From the NCBI RefSeq assembly GCF_004698125.1, contig NZ_ML214297.1:2144891-2208890 (forward strand): a stretch of DNA of 64,000 nt, written 5' to 3'. Below are positions 50,169 to 64,000 of this stretch, piece by piece (position 1 is the stretch's first letter; every line of letters begins with the position of its first letter). The stretch comes from Halosimplex halophilum (GTDB lineage: Archaea > Halobacteriota > Halobacteria > Halobacteriales > Haloarculaceae). The notes beneath the pieces are model-generated. The model was not told where the DNA came from and searched no databases. It saw nothing but the letters and a program-made list of their open reading frames with translations. The position numbers were made by a program, and so were the translations under genes.

Positions 50169-52334
50169 TTACCCCTCCTCCGGCGGTTCGAACTCGGTGT
50201 CGTAGCTGGCCTGGGCGATCCCGCCCAGCACGAGCACGTCCTCGATGCCGAACGAGCGCTCGTAGTCGAACGCCCGCGCCGAGGGGCCGGGCCAGTCGAA
50301 GTCGCGGACGTTCCCGAACGACCCCTGCATGTACTGGTGGAACGGGAAATGCGGGACGTAGAAGTTGTAGTACTTCGCGCAGGTGCGGTACAGCTGCTGG
50401 CGTTCCGCCTCGGAGTTGCCCGGCTGGCGGATCCTGTTGACCGTCTCGACGAGGTTGACCTCGGTCGCGTCGTCCAGATCGGGCGACTTCCCGGCCTCCT
50501 CGGGCGCGTCGAAGGCGCCGGGCTCGTTCGGGACCTGCTGGACGATCGGCTTGCCCTGGGTGTCGACGGTGTCCTCGGGCTTGGCCTCGAAGGGGTCCGG
50601 CGCGGTCGGGCTGCCGGCGACGAGCGTCTCGTCCCACCAGGCGCCCACGTCGTGGTAGTACTGGAAGACGTACGGGTCGCCGTGCCAGTACAGCGACGAC
50701 TCGTAGTTGAGCCCGCCGTTGGGGTCCAGGTTGTTCGACCACGTGTTCCAGCCCTGCGTCGAGAGGTTCACGCCGAAGCCCCAGTTGGCCAGGTTCGCCC
50801 GGATCGTCTGGGCCGCCTGGATGTGTTCGGGGATCGTCGACGTGGCGAACAGGTCGATCTCGGCGGCGTTGCCCGAGGGGTCGACCCACTGGCCGCCCTG
50901 CTTGCTGTACCCCGCGTTTCGCATGTACTGGTCGGCGTTCTCGACGTTCCGCTCGCGCGAGTAGGTGTGGAGGCCGTCGAGGAACTCCTCTGAGAAGACC
51001 GCCTCCGACTGGGCGTCCAGCAGGAACGTGTCGTGGGCGAGCGGCTGGGCGCCGCCCTCCCCCCAGCCGTTCTGAGAGACCGCGTTCCAGTCGACGGCCT
51101 CGACCAGCGCCCGGCGCACCCAGAGGTTCGCCAGGTGCGGGTTGTTCCAGTTGAACTTCCACATGTCCCCGCCGGTGGCGCGCAGCCACCGGGTGAACTC
51201 CTGCATGTAGTCGGGCAGCACTTCCCGGTTCAGCGACGCGCCGGGCGACACGTCACCGACGTTCACGTCGAGGACGCCCTCGGTCTTCAGCGTCTCCGCG
51301 CGGTCGCCCTCCGCCCAGTAGATGGCGAGCTTCTCGACGTTGGTGTTCCCGGCGTTCGGATGCTCCGGGTCGAGGTGGAGGACCATCCGCTCGGAGCCCA
51401 CGTCGTCCATCGACTCCAGCCGGTAGGGCCCGGTGCCGGCGAGGTACTCGTCGGTGCCGCCCGAGAGCGCGATGCGGTCGAGGGAGACCCGGTCGCTTTT
51501 CAGCTCATCGGTCACCGACGTCACCTGGTCGCGCGACCCCGCGTCGCGGTACCGCTCCAGGTACGGCTCCGTGAACGACGGATGCAGCGGCGGGTCGCCG
51601 TCGACCGGCCCGGCGTTCGTCTCCAGGATGTTCCGCGCGGTCGGGTCCGGCTCCTGCTCGGGGACCGACCCCTTGTCCGTCCACCGGTGGAGCGTCCACT
51701 GCTCCTCGGCGCGCTGGTTGAACGTGGCGTCCTCCGTGAACTTGTTCCCGGCCTGGAAGAACTCGACGTGGTTGTGTTTCTCGCGGGCGACCGCGTCGTG
51801 GGGGTCGCCGTTCCAGTAGGCCGACCGGTCGTCGTGGTGGTCGTACCAGTCGAAGGGCGGTTCGACCTCGGTCCCCTCGATCCACGTCATGATCTCGATC
51901 TCCTCGTGGTCGGGCTTGTGCGGCGTCGGCACCGTCGTCCCCGAGTACGACAGGTTCGTCGTGTGGACGTTCCGCAGCCCGTGGAGGTCCGACATCCACA
52001 GGTCCCCGGCCGTGTTGTCCTGGGGCGTCCAGGGGTTCCAGTCGAACACGTCCGGGGAGTTCGCGTGCGCGTAGGCGATCGTGTCGACGACCGGCTCGCG
52101 GTCCGTCGCCGTCGGCGCCGCCGTGTTCCCCGACCCGTTGGCCACCGTGTTCTCACGCTCGATCGGCTCGACCGTGTCGTCGCTCGACCCCGGCGTCGCC
52201 GTCGACCCGCTCTCGCTCGGACAGCCGGCCAGCCCGGCCGCGCCCAGCCCCGCGATCAACTGTGCGTACCGGCGACGCGAGACGCCGCCCGTCGAGTCGC
52301 CGCCCGCCTCGCCACCCTCGTTATTGGCTACCAT
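50169..52334 (-). CDS. ABC transporter solute-binding protein, family 5, Tat lipoprotein
   Basis: A 721-residue binding protein. Residues 20-38 are a Tat lipoprotein signal (RRRYAQLIAGLGAAGLAGC; the Cys at 38 would be lipidated). The large two-domain SBP_bac_5 fold follows, including DVNVGDVSPGASLNREVLPD and WVRRALVEAVDWNAVSQNGW, the usual hinge regions. Family 5 proteins bind oligopeptides or, in several archaea and Thermotoga, cello- and other oligosaccharides. No permease or ATPase gene is present here, so partners must be elsewhere. With a TrmB regulator downstream and glycosidases nearby, an oligosaccharide role is reasonable but unproven. Confidence 0.87.
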   Translation of the reverse strand: MVANNEGGEAGGDSTGGVSRRRYAQLIAGLGAAGLAGCPSESGSTATPGSSDDTVEPIERENTVANGSGNTAAPTATDREPVVDTIAYAHANSPDVFDWNPWTPQDNTAGDLWMSDLHGLRNVHTTNLSYSGTTVPTPHKPDHEEIEIMTWIEGTEVEPPFDWYDHHDDRSAYWNGDPHDAVAREKHNHVEFFQAGNKFTEDATFNQRAEEQWTLHRWTDKGSVPEQEPDPTARNILETNAGPVDGDPPLHPSFTEPYLERYRDAGSRDQVTSVTDELKSDRVSLDRIALSGGTDEYLAGTGPYRLESMDDVGSERMVLHLDPEHPNAGNTNVEKLAIYWAEGDRAETLKTEGVLDVNVGDVSPGASLNREVLPDYMQEFTRWLRATGGDMWKFNWNNPHLANLWVRRALVEAVDWNAVSQNGWGEGGAQPLAHDTFLLDAQSEAVFSEEFLDGLHTYSRERNVENADQYMRNAGYSKQGGQWVDPSGNAAEIDLFATSTIPEHIQAAQTIRANLANWGFGVNLSTQGWNTWSNNLDPNGGLNYESSLYWHGDPYVFQYYHDVGAWWDETLVAGSPTAPDPFEAKPEDTVDTQGKPIVQQVPNEPGAFDAPEEAGKSPDLDDATEVNLVETVNRIRQPGNSEAERQQLYRTCAKYYNFYVPHFPFHQYMQGSFGNVRDFDWPGPSARAFDYERSFGIEDVLVLGGIAQASYDTEFEPPEEG

Positions 52335-52362
52335 GGTTCGTGCCCTACTGTGGCCCACCCCT

Positions 52363-54472: not shown

Positions 54473-56314
54473 CTACTCCAGCCGGACGCCGCCGACCCGC
54501 AGGGTACCGGTTCCGCCCTGCCAGAAGTTCAGCCGCAGCGAGAGGTCCCCCACAGAGCGGTCGACCCCCGCCGACGCCATGTCGACGACGACCGGCGAGA
54601 GCGAGGTACCGATCGAGTCGTCGGTCACGTCGGCGAGCAGTCCGCTGGCGCCGCCCATGCTGAAGCGGATCTCCGACCCCTCGCCCCCGTCCGCGCCGGC
54701 AACCGTGAGGACGAGCGTGTCGTAGTCGCTCACGTCACGGTTGATCTGCTCCTGGTACCAGCCGCCGTTGTCGTACGCTAACACGAGCGCGCCGTCCTCG
54801 ACCTCGCCGGAGCCGTTCTCGAAGGACTCGGCGCCGCACCACTGTCCGAGGTCGTTGCGATGGGACGACCACGCCGGGTCCCCGTCGTAGTCGTTGACCA
54901 CCAGCGCGTCGCTCGCCGGCGTGTCGGTCGGCGTCTCCGGCTCGTCGGTCGGCGTCGCCGTCGACGTGGGGCCGCTGGGCGTCGGCGTGTCCGTCGGCGC
55001 GGGCGTGGCCGTCGGCGGCGGCGTCGCGGTCGAGGTGCCGGTGGGCGTCGCGGTGGCCGTGTCGGAGTCGGTGTCCGTATCGACCTCGCCGGCGGGCACG
55101 TCCTCGTCGCGGTGGGCGGCGAGTTCCTCCCGCCAGAACTCGCCGTACTCCTTGACCGACCAGTCGTGGTCGAGCATCGCCGGTCGCCACTTGCTGTCGA
55201 AACACCAGACCTGCCAGTGGACGTCGTAGTCGGCGAAGAAGTCGAGGAACTCCTGGCCCTCGTCGTCGGCGGTCCCGGTGATGTAGTCGGCGCCGTGCTC
55301 GCCCCAGCCGAACTCGGTCACGAACACCGGCACCTCCTCGGCGGGCGTCCCGAAGTACTCCGAGAGCGGGCGGAGGTTCTGATGGCCGTAGACGTGGCCG
55401 GTGTAGGCGAGGTTGTCGCCGTCGAACTCGTTTCTCGGCGCCTGGTAGGTCCACTGGCTCCACCGGGGCGAGCCGATCAGGACCAGGTTCCGCGGGGCGT
55501 GCTCGCGGATGGTGTCGACCCACGGCTGGGCGGCCTCCCTCCAGGTGTTCCACGTCTCGATGGCCTCGTCGTCGTTCGGCGCCACGTCGACGTTCGGCTC
55601 GTAGTGGCCCTGGTAGGGGTGGATCGGCTCGTTGTACACCTCGAAGAGGACGTGCGACTCGTCGGCGAACTCCGGGGCCACCGTCTCCCAGAACATCGTC
55701 AGCTCCTCGTCGATGCCCTCGCTGGTGTAGGCGTGCTCGTCGTCCTGGCCGCGGTGGCGGTGGTAGTCGACGATGCAGTAGACGTTCTGCTCCGCACAGG
55801 TGTCGACGGCCGGGCGGAGGTGGTTCTCGACGTACCGTTCGAGCTGGGACTGCGAGAAACCGGGGACCGGCGGGATACCGCCGGGGTCGTGGTCCCCCAC
55901 GTCGGTCGGCTGGATCGGGAGGCGGACGATCCGCGAGTACCACCCCTCGTCGGCGCTGGTCGCCCGTTCGATGGTCTCGTCGGCGTCGGGGCGAAAGTCC
56001 TTGACGTTCATCCGCCTGGCGTCGGGGACGTTCACCCCCCGGAGGATCACCTTGTTGTCGCTGGGGTCGCGGATCAGGTTGCCGTCGCGGTGGAGCCACG
56101 GCGTGGGAATGCCGTCGGCGGCGGCGCTGCCGGTGATCCCGACGCCGAGCGCCGTCGCGGCGCCCGCCCCCGCGGCCGTCCGCAGGAACCTCCGCCGGGA
56201 GACGGCGTCGACGCGGTCGCTGAGGCCGTCGGCGGACCCGGCGGTTCCGTGGGTCCGGTCGCGCTCGGGTCGGTCGTCGGTCGATTCGTCGGGTCGTGGT
56301 CGTTCGTGTGACAT
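54473..56314 (-). CDS. Secreted GH5 glycoside hydrolase (cellulase-like) with C-terminal shared module
   Basis: A 613-residue enzyme. The Tat signal RRRFLRTAAGAGAATALGVG begins at residue 40 and ends at SAAADG. Residues 70-395 are a GH5 barrel with the acid/base Glu in VYNEPIHPY and the nucleophile in VTEFGWGEHG; VDYHRHRGQDDEHAY near 160 fits cellulase-type subfamilies. A Thr/Pro/Ser linker (about 410-465) leads to a 145-residue module (469-613) present in four other proteins of this cluster. Closely related in catalytic domain to the GH5 at 5902. It is last in the leftward run of polysaccharide-degrading genes. Confidence 0.9.
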   Translation of the reverse strand: MSHERPRPDESTDDRPERDRTHGTAGSADGLSDRVDAVSRRRFLRTAAGAGAATALGVGITGSAAADGIPTPWLHRDGNLIRDPSDNKVILRGVNVPDARRMNVKDFRPDADETIERATSADEGWYSRIVRLPIQPTDVGDHDPGGIPPVPGFSQSQLERYVENHLRPAVDTCAEQNVYCIVDYHRHRGQDDEHAYTSEGIDEELTMFWETVAPEFADESHVLFEVYNEPIHPYQGHYEPNVDVAPNDDEAIETWNTWREAAQPWVDTIREHAPRNLVLIGSPRWSQWTYQAPRNEFDGDNLAYTGHVYGHQNLRPLSEYFGTPAEEVPVFVTEFGWGEHGADYITGTADDEGQEFLDFFADYDVHWQVWCFDSKWRPAMLDHDWSVKEYGEFWREELAAHRDEDVPAGEVDTDTDSDTATATPTGTSTATPPPTATPAPTDTPTPSGPTSTATPTDEPETPTDTPASDALVVNDYDGDPAWSSHRNDLGQWCGAESFENGSGEVEDGALVLAYDNGGWYQEQINRDVSDYDTLVLTVAGADGGEGSEIRFSMGGASGLLADVTDDSIGTSLSPVVVDMASAGVDRSVGDLSLRLNFWQGGTGTLRVGGVRLE

Positions 56315-56396: not shown

Positions 56397-58247
56397 TCAG
56401 TTCGGCACCCGGTAGGTCAGGTCGATGGCGTCGATGATCGGGTCGTTGCGGTTCAGGTCCGTCTCCAGCTCGACGTGCAGCGAGTCGAGCATCGTGTCGA
56501 CGAGGTCCTGCCGTTCGGCGCTCGTCGACCACGCGCTCCCGTCGCGGGGCGTCCCGATCTCCATCGCGACGCTCTGTCCGGGGTAGATCGTCCGCATGTG
56601 GTACGGCTCGTCGTGGTTGGCCAGCCGGACGGCGTACACCGACAGCTCGTCGTAGTCCGGGTGGTTCACCTCGATCACGTCGCGCTGGGGGTGGCCCAGC
56701 GACGCGCTCGGACGGTGGGGGTTGTTCCAGTGGCCGTCCGAGAGATTGGCGGCGTCGCCCGACGGGCCGAGCCACCAGATGACCGCCGCGTCCTGGAAGT
56801 ACGGCACCTCGCTGGTGTTCTTCAGCTTGATGTACTGGTTGAGGTAGCTCCCGCCGGTCTCGTGGATGCGGATCTCCGCCGCCATCGGCGCCGTTGCAGT
56901 GAACCCGTCGCCGCCGAGCGACTCGCCGGTCACCGGGTCGACCTTCTCGGCCGCGGCGTCCAGCACCGGATTCGTCTCGTCGTTGTAGACCGAGTCGGGG
57001 AGGTTCCCCGAACTACCCCACTCGCGGCTGTCGTCGTACTGGGGCTGGTCGTGGGCGCGGTCGCGCACGCGGACCTCCATCGGCTGGTAGGTCCGGGCGT
57101 CGGTCGGCCAGCGGTCCTGGACGAACTGGTCGGGGTCGTTCGTCGCCGCGGTCGGCCCGGCTGTCTCGTCCCACACGGTCTCGGGCTCGTCGTGGACGCC
57201 GGGGTCCTCCTCCTCGTCGGGCAACAGCGCCAGCCGCGGGAGCAGCTTCACCGTCGCGTGGGCCGGGAAGTCGTTCTCGGCGAGCTGTTTCACGTACGGC
57301 AGCGCCTGGGTGCCCAGCTGACCCAGCGTCAGCGACCCGTCGCCGACGTTGTTCTCGACGGCGCTCACGTCGTAGCCGAACTCCTCGGCCTTCTCGGAGT
57401 CGGTCCACTCCTGGAGCTTCGAGCCCGTCTCGCCCGGCAGGTAGTCCGTGAAGTCCCGCGGGACGTAGTAGGGGTCGTCGAAGTGCTCGTACAGCTCCGC
57501 TACGGTCGTGCTCTCGGTGATCTCCGAGGCCGGCGGCAGCGAGTCGGGTTCCGGCGGCCGGTCGGGGAACGGCACGTCCCAGGTGCTCCCGTCGTCGGGC
57601 GCGTCCGTCGGCGTGTCGTCGTCGGGTTCGTCGGTGGGTGTGTCGTCCTCCGGCGTGTCGGTCGGCGTGTCCGTCGGCGTCGACGGGTCCGTCGGCGTCG
57701 GCGTCGCGGTCGACGGCGGCGCCTCGCCGTCGCTCGTGAACGCGATGCGGTCGATCTCGACCGCCCCCGACTCGCCCTGCCAGAAGTTCAGCCGGACGGA
57801 CTGCGGACGCTCCAGGTCGGCGCCGGCCGCCGCGAGGTCGACCGACACCGTCGACCACTCCGTCCCGATCGCGTCGTCGGTGAGGTTGCCGAGCAGGTCC
57901 CTGGCGCCCCCCACGTCGACCAGGAAGTCGCTCTCCTCGCCGCCGGCGTCCCCGCGGACCCGCATCGTCAGGTGTCCGCGGTCGGCGACCGACTGCGAGA
58001 CGTTGCTCGCGAACCAGCCGGCGTTGTCGTACTCCAGTCGGAGCGCGCCGTCGGCGACCTCGCCGCTGCCGTCGCCGTTGGCGAAACTCCCCGCGCCGGC
58101 CCAGTTGCCCAGGTCGTTCGACCCGGGATAGCTCCCCCCGTCGAAGTCGTGGACGACCAGCGCGGACTCCTGGGCCAGGGCCGTCGAGGCCAGCCCCAGG
58201 CTTCCGAATGCGATACCCCCCTTCAGTACGGTTCGTCTGTCGACCAT
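56397..58247 (-). CDS. Secreted protein of unknown family with N-terminal shared module
   Basis: A 616-residue protein. Residues 3-27 are a Tat signal (DRRTVLKGGIAFGSLGLAST). The shared module (subtype B, LVVHDFDGGSYPGSNDLGNW) is at 28-171, followed by an acidic Thr/Pro linker (172-225). Residues 226-616 belong to no family I recognise: motifs include DPYYVPRDFTDYLPG, VKLLPRLALLPDEEEDPGVH, AAEIRIHETGGSYLNQYIKL, AAVIWWLGPSGDAANLSDGH and MRTIYPGQSVAMEIGTPRDG. Company of GH5 and GH10 enzymes suggests a polysaccharide role. ATG 58247 is chosen because GTTAAATTTAAC (58275-58286) upstream is its likely TATA element; GTG 58259 is the alternative. Confidence 0.82.
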   Translation of the reverse strand: MVDRRTVLKGGIAFGSLGLASTALAQESALVVHDFDGGSYPGSNDLGNWAGAGSFANGDGSGEVADGALRLEYDNAGWFASNVSQSVADRGHLTMRVRGDAGGEESDFLVDVGGARDLLGNLTDDAIGTEWSTVSVDLAAAGADLERPQSVRLNFWQGESGAVEIDRIAFTSDGEAPPSTATPTPTDPSTPTDTPTDTPEDDTPTDEPDDDTPTDAPDDGSTWDVPFPDRPPEPDSLPPASEITESTTVAELYEHFDDPYYVPRDFTDYLPGETGSKLQEWTDSEKAEEFGYDVSAVENNVGDGSLTLGQLGTQALPYVKQLAENDFPAHATVKLLPRLALLPDEEEDPGVHDEPETVWDETAGPTAATNDPDQFVQDRWPTDARTYQPMEVRVRDRAHDQPQYDDSREWGSSGNLPDSVYNDETNPVLDAAAEKVDPVTGESLGGDGFTATAPMAAEIRIHETGGSYLNQYIKLKNTSEVPYFQDAAVIWWLGPSGDAANLSDGHWNNPHRPSASLGHPQRDVIEVNHPDYDELSVYAVRLANHDEPYHMRTIYPGQSVAMEIGTPRDGSAWSTSAERQDLVDTMLDSLHVELETDLNRNDPIIDAIDLTYRVPN

Positions 58248-58274: not shown

Positions 58275-58286
58275 GTTAAATTTAAC
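58275..58286 (-). promoter_or_regulatory. Palindromic TATA element GTTAAATTTAAC
   Basis: A perfect 12-bp palindrome about 30 bases upstream of the ATG at 58247, in a strongly AT-rich island (58270-58310). It shows that the unknown secreted protein has its own promoter within the glycosidase cluster, and the palindromic TATA could double as an operator. Confidence 0.55.
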
Positions 58287-58431
58287 GAATAGAAAAATAA
58301 TTTTTGCGGAACGCTAACCACGCCGGGTCGAGCGGACCCGGCGACGGCCGGCCCCCGCAGCGCGGGCCGGAAACGGTGTGGAGGCGGGGCGAAGCCCCGG
58401 GGAACGGCAGCCGTGGAGCGGCGGGCGGTCC

Positions 58432-60069
58432 CTACTCTAATCGCACCTCCTCGATCCGCAGCGTGCTGGTTCCGCCCTGCCAGAAGTTCAGCCGCACCGA
58501 CAGCGCCGAGGACGACCGGTCGATCCCCGCCGCCGCCATGTCGACGCGCACGTCCGTCGCACTCGTCCCGACGGCGTCGTCGGTCACGTCGGCGAGCATG
58601 GTGCGGACCCCGCCCATGTCGAAGAGGACCTCCGACTCTTCGCCCCCGTCCGCGCCGCTGACGCGCAGGACGAGGTCGCTGTAGCCGTCGACCGGCCGGT
58701 TGATCTGCTCCTGGAACCAGCCGCCGTTGTCGTACGCTAACACGAGCGCGCCGTCCTCGACCTCGCCGCCGCCGTTCTCGAAGGACCCGGCCCCGCACCA
58801 CTGTCCGAGGTCGTTGCGATGGGACGACCACGCCGGGTCCCCGTCGTAGTCGTTGACCACCAGCGCGTCAGCCGCCGGGGTGTCCGTCGGCGTCTCCGGC
58901 TCGTCGGTCGGCGTCGGGGTCTCCGGTTCGTCCGTGGGCGTCGGCGTGTCGGGCTCGTCCGTCGGTGTCCCCGGTTCGTCGGTCGGCGAGTCCGTCGCGG
59001 TCCCGCCGTCGCCGAGCCGGCTGTAGACGACCGAGAAGTAGTCGCTGGCCGTGTAGCTGTCGGCCGAGCAGTCGTCGCCCCAGTACGGCGAGGCCATGTT
59101 CATCGGGTCCGCCGAGCCGTCGCCGTTCCAGGCCCAGCCGACGACCGGCCAGCCCAGCTCGCTCGCGTAGTCGACGATGGCCGACCAGTCGGCGCCCGTC
59201 GAGTTCGCGTAGTTGCCGAACTCCCCGATCATGCAGGGGTAGCTCGTCTCGTCCATCGCGTCGAGGTCCTCCGGGACGAGGTACTCCCCCGTCGTCGCGT
59301 TCCACGCGCTGGGGTAGACGTGCGCCGAGAGGATCAGGTCGTCGTCGTCGATCCCCTCGGCGGCGTCGGCCAGGCGGTAGGTGCCCTGGCCCCACCCGGG
59401 CGCGTCGCAGACGATCGGCCCCGAGTAGCTCGTCTCCGAGCGGACGGTGCCGATCGCCTCGTCGTACGCGTCGGCGTACTCCCCGGCGGTCACCTGGTGG
59501 TTGCCCCACTCGTTCATCATGTTCACCGTGAACGAGGTGTCGGCCGAGAGCGTCTCGTAGTGCTCCGCCCAGAACTCCGCCGCGTTCTGGAGCGCCGCGG
59601 CACTGGCCGACCCGTTGTCGGGGTAGTGGTGGTACGTGGCGATCACGTCCAGCCCGTGGGCCGCGGCCTCGTCGATCCAGCGCTTGGCGTCCTCGACCGT
59701 CGTGGCGACCTCGCCGAAGTCGAACGGCTCGATCTCGATCCGGACCGTCTCGATGTCCGGGTACTCCGCCATGAGGTCGTAGCCCAGGTCCTGGTCCCCG
59801 TCGCAGAAGTACGACGGCTGGAGGTTGACGCCGTCGCCGAACGAGGCGCCGGCGGCCGTCGACACGGTCGCGCCGAGCGTGCCGACCGCGCCGAGCGCGA
59901 CGCCGCCGCCGAGCCCGCGCAGCACCGTCCGCCGCCGCGGGCCGCCGTTCGACGCGTCACCGCCGCCGCCCGGTGCGTCGCCGCTGCCACCGGACCGGGC
60001 GCGGTCGACCGCCCGGCCGCGTCGCTGTTCGCCGTCCTGTGCCTGTCGTGGTGAGTCGTCGGAGTCCAT
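58432..60069 (-). CDS. Secreted GH5 mannanase-like enzyme with C-terminal shared module
   Basis: A 545-residue enzyme. The Tat signal RRRTVLRGLGGGVALGAVGT starts at residue 45 after a long hydrophilic leader. The catalytic domain (75-355) starts with GVNLQPSYFC and has DVIATYHHYPD, the acid/base in NMMNEWGNH and the nucleophile in MIGEFGNY, then GWPVVGWAWNGDG; this GEFG and WAWNG pattern resembles GH5_8 beta-mannanases, though subfamily assignment needs alignment. A Thr/Pro/Glu linker (358-400) connects to the shared module (402-545, subtype A). It lies 99 bases downstream of the GH10 xylanase gene in the same direction. Confidence 0.88.
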   Translation of the reverse strand: MDSDDSPRQAQDGEQRRGRAVDRARSGGSGDAPGGGGDASNGGPRRRTVLRGLGGGVALGAVGTLGATVSTAAGASFGDGVNLQPSYFCDGDQDLGYDLMAEYPDIETVRIEIEPFDFGEVATTVEDAKRWIDEAAAHGLDVIATYHHYPDNGSASAAALQNAAEFWAEHYETLSADTSFTVNMMNEWGNHQVTAGEYADAYDEAIGTVRSETSYSGPIVCDAPGWGQGTYRLADAAEGIDDDDLILSAHVYPSAWNATTGEYLVPEDLDAMDETSYPCMIGEFGNYANSTGADWSAIVDYASELGWPVVGWAWNGDGSADPMNMASPYWGDDCSADSYTASDYFSVVYSRLGDGGTATDSPTDEPGTPTDEPDTPTPTDEPETPTPTDEPETPTDTPAADALVVNDYDGDPAWSSHRNDLGQWCGAGSFENGGGEVEDGALVLAYDNGGWFQEQINRPVDGYSDLVLRVSGADGGEESEVLFDMGGVRTMLADVTDDAVGTSATDVRVDMAAAGIDRSSSALSVRLNFWQGGTSTLRIEEVRLE

Positions 60070-60168: not shown

Positions 60169-62868
60169 TCAGGAGACGGTGACTTCGACCGTGTCGGTGG
60201 TCGAGGCGCCCTCGTTGTTCGTCGCGGTCAGTTCGACGGTGTAGGTGCCCGCCGAGCCGTAGGTCGCCTCGGCGTACCAGCCGCTGGCCGACTCGCCGTT
60301 GCCCAGGCTCCAGGACAGCGAGTCGACCCAGTTGCCCGACTCGGTGGTGTCGGTCACGCGGAAGCTGACCCGCTCGCCGACCGACGCCGAGGTCGCGCTC
60401 GGGTCGATCTCCGCGACGAGGTCGCCGCTCGACCCGTCGGAACCGTCCGACCCGTCCGACCCGTCGGAGCCGTCGGAGCCGTCCGACCCGTCGCCGCCCC
60501 CGCCGGAGCCGCCGAAGGCGATGCGGTCGATCTCGACCGCCCCCGACTCGCCCTGCCAGAAGTTCAGCCGGACGGACTGGGGGTCGTCGAGGTCGGCACC
60601 GGCCGCCGCGAGGTCGACCGACACCGTCGACCACTCCGTCCCGATCGCGTCGTCCGTGAGGTTGCCGAGCACGTCGCTCGCGCCGCCGACCTGGACGGTG
60701 AAGTCGTCCTCCTCGCCGCCCGCGTCGCCGCGGACGCGGAGGCGCAGCGTCGGCCGGTCGGCGACCGACCGCGTGACGTTCGACCCCATCCAGCCGGCGT
60801 TGTCGTACTCCAGCCGGAGCGCGCCGTCCGACACGTCGCCGCTGCCGCCGCCGTTGGCGAAGCTACCGCCGTCGGCCCAGTTGCCCAGGTCGTTCGACCC
60901 GGGGTAATTGCCGCCGTCGAACTCGTGGACGACCAGCGCGTCGCCGGCCGGCTCGTCGGTCCCGTCCTCGCCGTCGCCGGCGGCGTCGGTCGTCGCCGTG
61001 ACGGTCGCGGCGTCGGACTCGTTGCCGGCGGCGTCAACCGCCGAGACGCCGACCGTGTAGCTCGTCTCGGCCGACAGCCCCTCGACGGTCGCCGTCGTCA
61101 TGCCCGCACCCACGGTCTGGTCCTCGCTGCCGTCGACGTAGACGACGTACTCCGAGAGACCGGCGGAGCCGTTGTCGGAGACGCCCTCCCAGGTGACCGT
61201 CACCGTCGAGTCGGTCGTCGCCGACACCGAGAGGTCCTCCGGTACCGACGGCGGCTGGGTGTCGTCGCTCCCCTCTCCGTCGCCCTCGACGGTGACCGTC
61301 ACGGTCGTCGTGCCCGACGCGTCCGACACGGAGACCGTCTCCGTGGTCTCGCCGCTGTCGGTGCTGACCGTGACCTCGTGCTCGCCGAGGAAGGCGGTCG
61401 TCGCGTAGGCGCCCGAGCCGTCGGTCGTCCCGCTGTCGTCGGTCCACCACTCGTCGTAGACGAGGCCAGTCCACACGTCGTAGGCGGGTTTCTGCGACCA
61501 GTCGTCGTAGAACAGCGGCGCCTCGTTCTCCCAGTGGCGGCCGTCCCAGAAGCCCCACATGATGAAGTCGTCGCAGCCGGGGTGGGAGAAGGCGCCCCGC
61601 AGGTAGTTCTCCAGCATCTGCGCGCGCTCCTCGTCGTCCTCCCAGTCGTCGCCGTTGTACGTGTCGAACTCCGTGATCTTCAGTCGGCCGCCCAGGTCGG
61701 CCCACTTGTTCATCTCCTCGGCGACCTGGGCGGCGCTGATCCGGCCGTCCGGGTCGTCGTTGCTGTTGAACTCCCCCTGTCGGGCGGCGACGTGAGCCTG
61801 TAGCCCGACGGTGTCGACCTGAACGGCGTTGGAGTTGATGTGCTGGATCTCGTTCTGATACCGGTTGTCGGTGTAGGCGTAGGGGAACTGGTTGAAGTCG
61901 TTGACGGCGATCCCCAGGTCGTAGCCGTTCTCGCTGATGACCGATTCGGCCTTGTCGTACCAGTCGGCCAGCAGCTGGGAACTCCAGGGGACGACCTCGC
62001 CGGTCCAGGGCTCCTCGGTGTCGATCTGGTCGCCGTAGACGCCGATCTGCATCTGGTAGACGTGCATCGCCTCGTTGACGACCTCCCACTCGGTCAGGTC
62101 GTCGCCGTAGTGGGTGATGATCTCCTCGATGTGGGCCATCGACCGCTCGCGGATCGTCTCGGCGTCGTTGTTGTCGATCGCGGTCTGGATGTCCGAGGGG
62201 ATGGCGCCGACGTCCTCGCGACCCCACAGGCAGACGTGCCCGCGCATGTCCAGCCCCTGGTCCAGGACCCACTGGGTCGCCTCGTCGGCCAGCGCCTGCT
62301 CGTTCTCGAAGAAGTCCCACTTGTGGCGGTTCTCCATCACCGCCTTGTTGAACAGCTCCGGGATGTACGTCCGGTAGTTGTCCCCCTCGCTGGAGCTGTT
62401 GATCAGCGTGTTGGCGTTGACGGCCGTCCCGAAGCCGAACTGGTGTTCCCGCTGGGAGACCGAGACCTCCGCCCCCGAGACCGTCGAACCGTCGGGGTTC
62501 TCGACGACCACTTCGAGGTCGCCTGTCCGGTGTTCCCGGATGCGCTCGTCGACCGTCTTCGACGTGTCGGCCGTCTCCGCGGCCGCCGTCCCCGTCCCGG
62601 CGCTACCGAGGCCGGCCATCGCGGCGGCCGCCAGCGACGCCTTCAGGTAGTCCCGCCGGTCCATCGACGCCAGCGCCTCGGCGGCCTCCTCGTCTACGAC
62701 CTCCGGGTCGTCCACGTCTGCGACCTCGGGGCCGCCCGCGTCGCACCGCTCGGCCTCGATCCCGTCCGCATCGGCCGCTTCGATGTCGGTTTTGTCGGCC
62801 GATCCGTCGGCCGTCGGTACGTCTGTCCCGTCCGTCTGTGCTCGGTCGGATGTGTCGTCGTTCGTCAT
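60169..62868 (-). CDS. Secreted GH10 xylanase with FN3, shared module and PKD domain
   Basis: An 899-residue modular enzyme. A 68-residue acidic extension precedes the Tat signal (DRRDYLKASLAAAAMAGLGS). The GH10 domain (about 105-470) has REHQFGFGTAVNANTL, the acid/base in WEVVNEAMHVY and the nucleophile in KITEFDTYNGD. Then come a small beta domain, an FN3 domain (about 535-625), the shared module (641-784, subtype B), a GSD repeat linker and a PKD domain (815-899). GH10 enzymes cut beta-1,4-xylan. ATG 62664 (MDRRDYLKAS) is a possible alternative start that removes the extension. Its neighbour upstream is a second GH10 gene, 30 bases away. Confidence 0.9.
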   Translation of the reverse strand: MTNDDTSDRAQTDGTDVPTADGSADKTDIEAADADGIEAERCDAGGPEVADVDDPEVVDEEAAEALASMDRRDYLKASLAAAAMAGLGSAGTGTAAAETADTSKTVDERIREHRTGDLEVVVENPDGSTVSGAEVSVSQREHQFGFGTAVNANTLINSSSEGDNYRTYIPELFNKAVMENRHKWDFFENEQALADEATQWVLDQGLDMRGHVCLWGREDVGAIPSDIQTAIDNNDAETIRERSMAHIEEIITHYGDDLTEWEVVNEAMHVYQMQIGVYGDQIDTEEPWTGEVVPWSSQLLADWYDKAESVISENGYDLGIAVNDFNQFPYAYTDNRYQNEIQHINSNAVQVDTVGLQAHVAARQGEFNSNDDPDGRISAAQVAEEMNKWADLGGRLKITEFDTYNGDDWEDDEERAQMLENYLRGAFSHPGCDDFIMWGFWDGRHWENEAPLFYDDWSQKPAYDVWTGLVYDEWWTDDSGTTDGSGAYATTAFLGEHEVTVSTDSGETTETVSVSDASGTTTVTVTVEGDGEGSDDTQPPSVPEDLSVSATTDSTVTVTWEGVSDNGSAGLSEYVVYVDGSEDQTVGAGMTTATVEGLSAETSYTVGVSAVDAAGNESDAATVTATTDAAGDGEDGTDEPAGDALVVHEFDGGNYPGSNDLGNWADGGSFANGGGSGDVSDGALRLEYDNAGWMGSNVTRSVADRPTLRLRVRGDAGGEEDDFTVQVGGASDVLGNLTDDAIGTEWSTVSVDLAAAGADLDDPQSVRLNFWQGESGAVEIDRIAFGGSGGGGDGSDGSDGSDGSDGSDGSDGSSGDLVAEIDPSATSASVGERVSFRVTDTTESGNWVDSLSWSLGNGESASGWYAEATYGSAGTYTVELTATNNEGASTTDTVEVTVS
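60427..60492. repeat. 9-bp tandem repeat coding a GSD linker
   Basis: About seven copies of a nonamer of the GACCCGTCC/GAGCCGTCG kind encode Gly-Ser-Asp triplets in the linker between the shared module and the PKD domain of the xylanase. Such a run can vary in length by slippage. Confidence 0.8.
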
Positions 62869-62898: not shown

Positions 62899-64000
62899 CT
62901 ATTCGAGCCGGATCTCCGCGATCCGCAGCGTGCTGCTACCGCCCTGCCAGAAGTTGAGCCGCACCGAGAGATCCCCCACAGAGCGGTCGATCCCCGCCGA
63001 CGCCAGGTCGACGCGGACTTCCCCCGTGCTCGTGCCGATGGCGTCGTCGGTGACGTTCGAGAGCATGGTCCGCACCCCGCCCATGTCGAAGAGGATTTCC
63101 GACTCCTCGCCGCCGTCCGCGCCGCCGACCTCGAACACCAGCGTCGAGTACGCCTCGATCGACCGATTGATCTGCTCCTGGAACCAGCCGCCGTTGTCGT
63201 ACTCCAGAACGAGCGCACCGTCCTCGACCTCGCCGGAGCCGTTCTCGAAGGACCCGGCGCCGCACCACTCGCCCAGGTCGTTGCGGTGGCTCGACCAGCC
63301 CGGGTCCCCGTCGTAGTTGTCGACGACCAGCGCGTCGGCCGGCTCGTCGCTCCCGCCGTCGTCACTCGCGTCGGTCGCGGCCGTGACGGTCGCGGCGTCG
63401 GACTCGTTGCCCGCCCCGTCGACCGCCGCGACACCGATCTCGTAGGCCGTGTCGGCCGACAGTCCCTCGACGGTCGCCGTCGTCATGCCCGCACCCACGG
63501 TCTGGTCCTCGCTCCCGTCGACGTAGACGACGTACCCGTCCAGCCCCGAAGAGCCGTTGTCGGAGACGCCCTCCCAGGTGACCGTCACCGTCGAGTCGGT
63601 CGTCGCCGACACCGAGAGGTCCTCCGGTACCGACGGCGGCTGGGTGTCTCCCGTGTCGCCGCCGCCCTCGACGGTGACGGTGACGGTAGTCGTCCCCGAA
63701 GCCTCGGACAGCGAGACGGGTTCGGTCGTCTCGCCGCTGTCGGTGCTGACCGTGACCTCGTGCTCGCCGAGGAACGCCGTCGTCGCGTAGGCGCCCGAGC
63801 CGTCGGTCGTCCCGCTGTCGTCGGTCCACCACTCGTCGTAGACGAGGCCGGTCCACACGTCGTAGGCGGGTTTCCGCGACCAGTCGTCGTAGAACAGCGG
63901 CGCCTCGTCCTTCCAGTGGTCGCCGTCCCAGAAGCCCCACATGACGAAGGCGTCGACGCCGGGGTGGGAGAACGCACCGCGCAGATAGTTCTCGGTCACG
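62899..64000 (-). CDS. Second GH10 xylanase, C-terminal part (5' end outside window)
   Basis: At least 367 codons are visible; the gene continues beyond the right edge. The visible part begins in the last strand and helix of a GH10 domain (LRGAFSHPGVDAFVMWGFWD, EAPLFYDDWSRKPAYDVWTG), then the same small beta domain and FN3 domain as the neighbouring xylanase, and ends in a shared module of subtype A (the last 146 residues). Large stretches match the neighbouring gene almost base for base (around 63560-63650 and 61180-61262), which shows recent duplication or conversion. The catalytic Glu residues lie outside the window, so activity cannot be judged. Confidence 0.88.
   Translation of the reverse strand, partial: VTENYLRGAFSHPGVDAFVMWGFWDGDHWKDEAPLFYDDWSRKPAYDVWTGLVYDEWWTDDSGTTDGSGAYATTAFLGEHEVTVSTDSGETTEPVSLSEASGTTTVTVTVEGGGDTGDTQPPSVPEDLSVSATTDSTVTVTWEGVSDNGSSGLDGYVVYVDGSEDQTVGAGMTTATVEGLSADTAYEIGVAAVDGAGNESDAATVTAATDASDDGGSDEPADALVVDNYDGDPGWSSHRNDLGEWCGAGSFENGSGEVEDGALVLEYDNGGWFQEQINRSIEAYSTLVFEVGGADGGEESEILFDMGGVRTMLSNVTDDAIGTSTGEVRVDLASAGIDRSVGDLSVRLNFWQGGSSTLRIAEIRLE

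Follow-up and report, generated by a model that had tools for sequence, protein, structure and literature searches.

We describe a domain of 390 residues, hereafter DOM, that forms the C-terminal part of an apparently exported protein of Halosimplex halophilum. As judged from sequence comparisons, DOM is a real haloarchaeal family that belongs to no described family. We consider it rather likely that the proteins with DOM form a new family of auxiliary enzymes which polysaccharide-degrading haloarchaea secrete, and that DOM is their working domain, i.e. the one in the catalytic slot. Such a protein would probably be metal-dependent and act on insoluble beta-1,4-glycans.

The gene lies in a stretch of 64,000 nucleotides, called the window below, from whose first letter all coordinates are counted. 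The features used in this work are as follows.

56397..58247, minus strand: DOM-bearing gene, 616 aa, with ATG at 58247 and a stop codon ending at 56397 (translation)
58276..58287, minus strand: TATA-like element CGTTAAATTTAA upstream of the DOM gene, conserved in 8 relatives
58170..58247, minus strand: Tat-like signal peptide MVDRRTVLKGGIAFGSLGLASTALAQ, residues about 1-26 (twin-arginine motif in the sequence)
57738..58160, minus strand: MOD, a CBM-like beta-sandwich module of 141 aa (HMM matches, AF2 model, PDB fold matches)
57561..57737, minus strand: linker rich in T, P and D (sequence)
56397..57569, minus strand: DOM, unclassified C-terminal 390 aa (residues 227-616) with the stop codon (no Pfam, NCBIfam, PHROGs or PDB match)
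56679..56693, minus strand: H519-P-Q-R-D523, invariant in 31 diverse members
56613..56615, minus strand: H545, invariant in the same 31 members
56469..56477, minus strand: H591-x-E593, invariant in the same 31 members
54473..56314, minus strand: GH5 and MOD with a Tat signal (Pfam PF00150, E 2e-29; MOD HMM)
58432..60069, minus strand: GH5 and MOD (Pfam PF00150, E 7e-15; MOD HMM)
60169..62868, minus strand: GH10, fn3, MOD and PKD (Pfam PF00331, E 5e-34; MOD HMM)
62899..63999, minus strand: C-terminus of GH10, fn3 and MOD, cut by the window end (Pfam; MOD HMM)

Read from its N-terminus, the protein consists of a Tat-type signal, the CBM-like MOD, the T/P/D linker and finally DOM. An earlier note on this DNA placed the gene inside a glycosidase cluster, and Pfam agrees: both immediate neighbours are GH5 proteins, followed by GH10. 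The same note proposed Tat export and a promoter of the gene's own. The signal DRRTVLKG is indeed Tat-like, and most DOM homologues have a Tat-like twin arginine close to the start. The 8 relatives retain an AT-rich block with the TATA-like element some 30-40 nt ahead of the ATG, and this is consistent with a separate promoter. The domain span proposed there, 56397-57570, describes a real domain, but its end is one base out of frame and 57569 fits. The upstream part of the cluster also contains a gene at 50169-52358 (minus strand) for a protein of 729 aa with a Tat-like, lipobox-like N-terminus; it reads like a solute-binding protein, possibly that of an oligosaccharide importer.

MOD had been noticed as a module shared within the cluster, and its HMM finds it in all five cluster proteins (54476-54904, 57738-58160, 58435-58863, 60514-60936 and 62902-63330, all on the minus strand); together with related loci there are 60+ copies. 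The AF2 model of MOD (pLDDT 86) matches CBM8, CBM30, CBM29 and CBM11 in the PDB with Z of 11 to 14, and also a mannanase CBM. MOD is accordingly modelled as a CBM30/CBM11/CBM29-like beta-sandwich. It resembles CBM30, CBM11, CBM29 and CBM8 in predicted fold and in attachment to GH5/GH10 enzymes, but its identity to the structural matches is only 9-18%, and no Pfam family matches above the cut-off, the weak CBM60, CBM30 and CBM11 matches falling below it. MOD is probably an undescribed CBM family. Given these fold matches of the predicted structure, binding of polysaccharide by the window protein is very probable.

With thresholds of E 1 for Pfam and NCBIfam and of E 10 for PDB sequences, DOM of the window protein has no match. 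Thirty further members, scanned singly, could not be assigned credibly to any family of Pfam, NCBIfam or PHROGs, and a search of the PDB with the DOM profile found no solved structure. Comparison with known GH, lyase and esterase families in Pfam and NCBIfam was likewise negative. Weak Pfam matches, including DUF1830 and BtrH_N, each touch one or two members and were rejected as chance; two PDB profile matches (E 0.75 and 2.1) were rejected as local helix matches. At the level of sequence, the 390-residue domain thus remains as unclassified in Pfam, NCBIfam, PHROGs and the PDB as the earlier note had it.

The genome of Halosimplex halophilum has a single copy of DOM, and other Halosimplex genomes (H. 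carlsbadense, H. pelagicum) have copies that are 93-94% identical. The domain is present in 25 of 146 genomes of the host's taxonomic family and in 40 of 391 sampled Halobacteria genomes, i.e. about a tenth, distributed over 20 of 86 genera. A profile search of the phylum sample gave no credible DOM outside Halobacteria, the three stretches that were picked up (E 0.1-0.6) being at chance level. Bacteria were covered by exact 8-residue patterns in the genome collection and by tblastn of plasmids only. No relatives were found in viral contigs with three different DOM queries, nor any DOM in phage records; among plasmids, tblastn found it only in Halocatena salina.

Genes of GH5, GH9, GH10, GH12 or GH18 (cellulases, xylanases, chitinases) lie within about 9 kb in 32 of 39 DOM loci and in none of 20 same-size stretches placed at round coordinates in the same genomes (Fisher 3e-10), a contrast that is indicative and not exact because of this placement and because part of the seeds of the GH models came from the DOM loci under comparison, which are related and so not independent. 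Pfam, applied to a subset of loci, independently confirms the GH18, GH5, GH9, GH10 and GH12 neighbours. In the seven loci with no GH detected nearby, the DOM proteins still bear CBM5/12 or a CBM-like module. Loci of the chitin type extend over several Halobacteria families. GH18 itself occurs in 27 of the 40 genomes with DOM and in 50 of 391 overall (Fisher 1.6e-18), a co-occurrence that is partly phylogenetic. The suggestion that the domain serves polysaccharide loci has therefore stood: no known family matches it by sequence, and its relatives sit in chitinase and cellulase clusters. The latter makes it probable that DOM is an accessory enzyme, so far unrecognised, that helps to break down tough polysaccharides.

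The domain architecture points to the same role. DOM is located C-terminally to binding modules, where the neighbouring proteins hold their catalytic domain. In particular, CBM5/12-PKD-DOM proteins adjoin CBM5/12-PKD-GH18 chitinases, and MOD-DOM proteins adjoin MOD-bearing GH5, GH10 and GH12 proteins. Haloarchaeal chitinases of the former architecture, e.g. those of Natrarchaeobius in the comparative genomics of PMC12343721, share with DOM proteins the Tat signal, CBM5/12, PKD and the clusters, and differ in having GH18 where these have DOM. The type of module follows the type of neighbour: among GH-containing loci, all 12 of the CBM5/12-DOM type have GH18 and none has GH5/9/10/12, while all 16 of the MOD-DOM type have GH5/9/10/12, one of them also having GH18 at the edge (Fisher 4e-7). 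On the DOM tree, CBM5/12 and MOD are separated by one switch. A carbohydrate-binding module precedes DOM everywhere except in one truncated ORF and in the Halocatena proteins, which are solo DOM proteins inside GH5/GH10/GH12 operons. DOM proteins thus combine an export signal, a CBM and placement in a polysaccharide locus, as would be expected of a secreted auxiliary CAZyme.

Two irregularities were seen in the loci. In L088:7469-9450, CBM5/12-PKD and DOM are in overlapping frames, likely due to a frameshift or an assembly error. Three CBM5/12 proteins (L078:4582-5949, L081:9925-11472 and L082:6281-7699) have weak and partial GH18 matches and are similar to the "ambiguous chitinases" of the comparative genomics in PMC12343721.

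The constant tie of DOM to polysaccharide loci and CBMs would also suit a non-catalytic protein, either a large CBM or an expansin/swollenin-like amorphogenesis factor, that binds or loosens the polymer and opens it to glycosidases. The solo forms in Halocatena fit this view, and invariant W380, W410, Y549 and Y555 could bind sugars. We regard it as unlikely: DOM stands in the position of a catalytic domain, and the protein would then have two binding domains, no Pfam expansin or CBM matches it, and its conservation is dominated by H, R, D, E, N and Q, not by aromatic residues. Both the architecture and the invariant-residue pattern speak more for an enzyme than for a pure binder.

That pattern comprises 36 residues invariant in 31 diverse members with identity down to 37%. 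About 22 of the 36 are polar or charged, and many lie within the last 108 residues. The strongest motifs are GHPQRD (518-523), HDxPYxxRxxYPxQ (545-558) and HxE (591-593); R552 is among the invariant residues, and so are the four aromatic residues named above. The motifs singled out in the earlier note coincide with the conserved ones only in part, at H462 and W492 (30/31 each). Three invariant histidines and the invariant acids suggest a metal centre, and the whole resembles a catalytic, perhaps metal-dependent, candidate site made up of H519, D523, H545, H591 and E593 with R512, R522, R541, R552, Y549 and Y555. The conserved residues could be structural instead. The AF2 model of DOM, built from six near-identical sequences (window and L002-L006, 79-94% identical), has a pLDDT of 39 and is unusable, so the catalytic site is one that we infer.

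The conservation of His and Asp is of a metal type, and no Ser or Cys is invariant in the 31 members. A metal-dependent, CE4-like carbohydrate esterase or deacetylase would remove N-acetyl groups from chitin and O-acetyl groups from xylan or mannan, a single activity that is sensible in chitinase and xylanase/mannanase clusters alike; this conservation and the absence of an invariant Ser would suit it. We hold it to be quite improbable, since no Pfam esterase or deacetylase matches DOM and clusters of the cellulose type do not necessarily offer an acetylated substrate.

A copper- or iron-dependent oxidative cleaver of polysaccharides, analogous to LPMOs but of independent origin, is possible, if doubtful. 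The three histidines and the acids would suit it, and the chitin and cellulose modules are exchanged as they are in AA10 LPMOs, which few of the Halobacteria genomes (7 of 391) have. Like AA10 LPMOs (PF03067), which are used on both chitin and cellulose, DOM proteins are apparently secreted, carry CBM5/12 or another CBM and are encoded with chitinases or cellulases, the DOM loci being of both types. Moreover, two DOM proteins with a length near 1,070 aa (L065:8477-11692 and L080:6228-9419) have several PKD, CBM5/12 and a cupredoxin domain, a possible electron donor; the one in L080 matches Pfam Copper-bind (E 5.5e-05), and the type-1 copper ligands H, C, H and M can be seen in both. Against this, DOM has no N-terminal histidine brace. 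Haloarchaeal AA10 domains begin with H, whereas DOM, with its 390 aa, follows a signal, a CBM and a linker, and in the solo forms from Halocatena the predicted signal region is not directly followed by a His. Compared as profiles, DOM and the AA10 of haloarchaea are not similar (hhalign probability 0.4%), and PF03067 matches none of the 31 members; membership of DOM in AA10 was rejected on these grounds. Four of the seven AA10 genomes also hold DOM, and therefore it is no simple replacement of AA10. A haloarchaeal cleaver of chitin and cellulose of this kind, metal-dependent, lacking the N-terminal brace and unrelated to known LPMOs, seems slightly less probable still. To read DOM as an oxidative enzyme or as a deacetylase is to specify the auxiliary-enzyme reading further, and the likelihoods overlap accordingly.

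In several cellulose-type loci, dockerin-like modules are found on the GH proteins and DOM is preceded by a small MOD-dockerin protein, as might be expected if DOM were a cohesin-like scaffold partner of dockerin-bearing glycosidases. This is very improbable: DOM has no cohesin match, the genome of the window yields no dockerin or cohesin match, and the chitin-type neighbours examined are free of dockerin.

The dockerin-like modules occur on GH5, GH9 and PL14 proteins, with small MOD-dockerin proteins beside DOM, in L063, L066, L073, L076, L077, L079, L086 and L093. Dockerin and cohesin matches are present in genomes G046 (64 dockerin, 3 cohesin), G399, G417 and G210; an archaeal cellulosome-like system is possible.

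For DOM as an auxiliary enzyme we propose the following course. Tat would export the folded protein, and its CBM would anchor it on the solid polymer, CBM5/12 on chitin and MOD on cellulose or hemicellulose. Through its candidate site, DOM would then modify the beta-1,4-linked chain, or groups attached to it, and thereby help the adjacent glycosidases to work better.

Breakdown of crystalline cellulose and chitin by haloarchaea is called almost unexplored in PMC10267330, where Halosimplex carlsbadense is reported to grow on amorphous cellulose. The comparison of haloarchaeal cellulose use given there names GH5, GH9, GH10 and GH12, and mentions GH5 proteins with "yet undetectable domains". The comparative genomics of PMC12343721 reports CBM5-PKD-GH18 chitinase clusters and an AA10 in Natrarchaeobius. 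DOM is not mentioned in the searched passages of these two works. A domain that takes the catalytic position in clusters of both kinds, chitinase and cellulase, across several haloarchaeal families, and that is free of matches in Pfam, NCBIfam and the PDB, offers a well-delimited candidate for a new CAZyme family, and one that comes with named candidate active-site residues.
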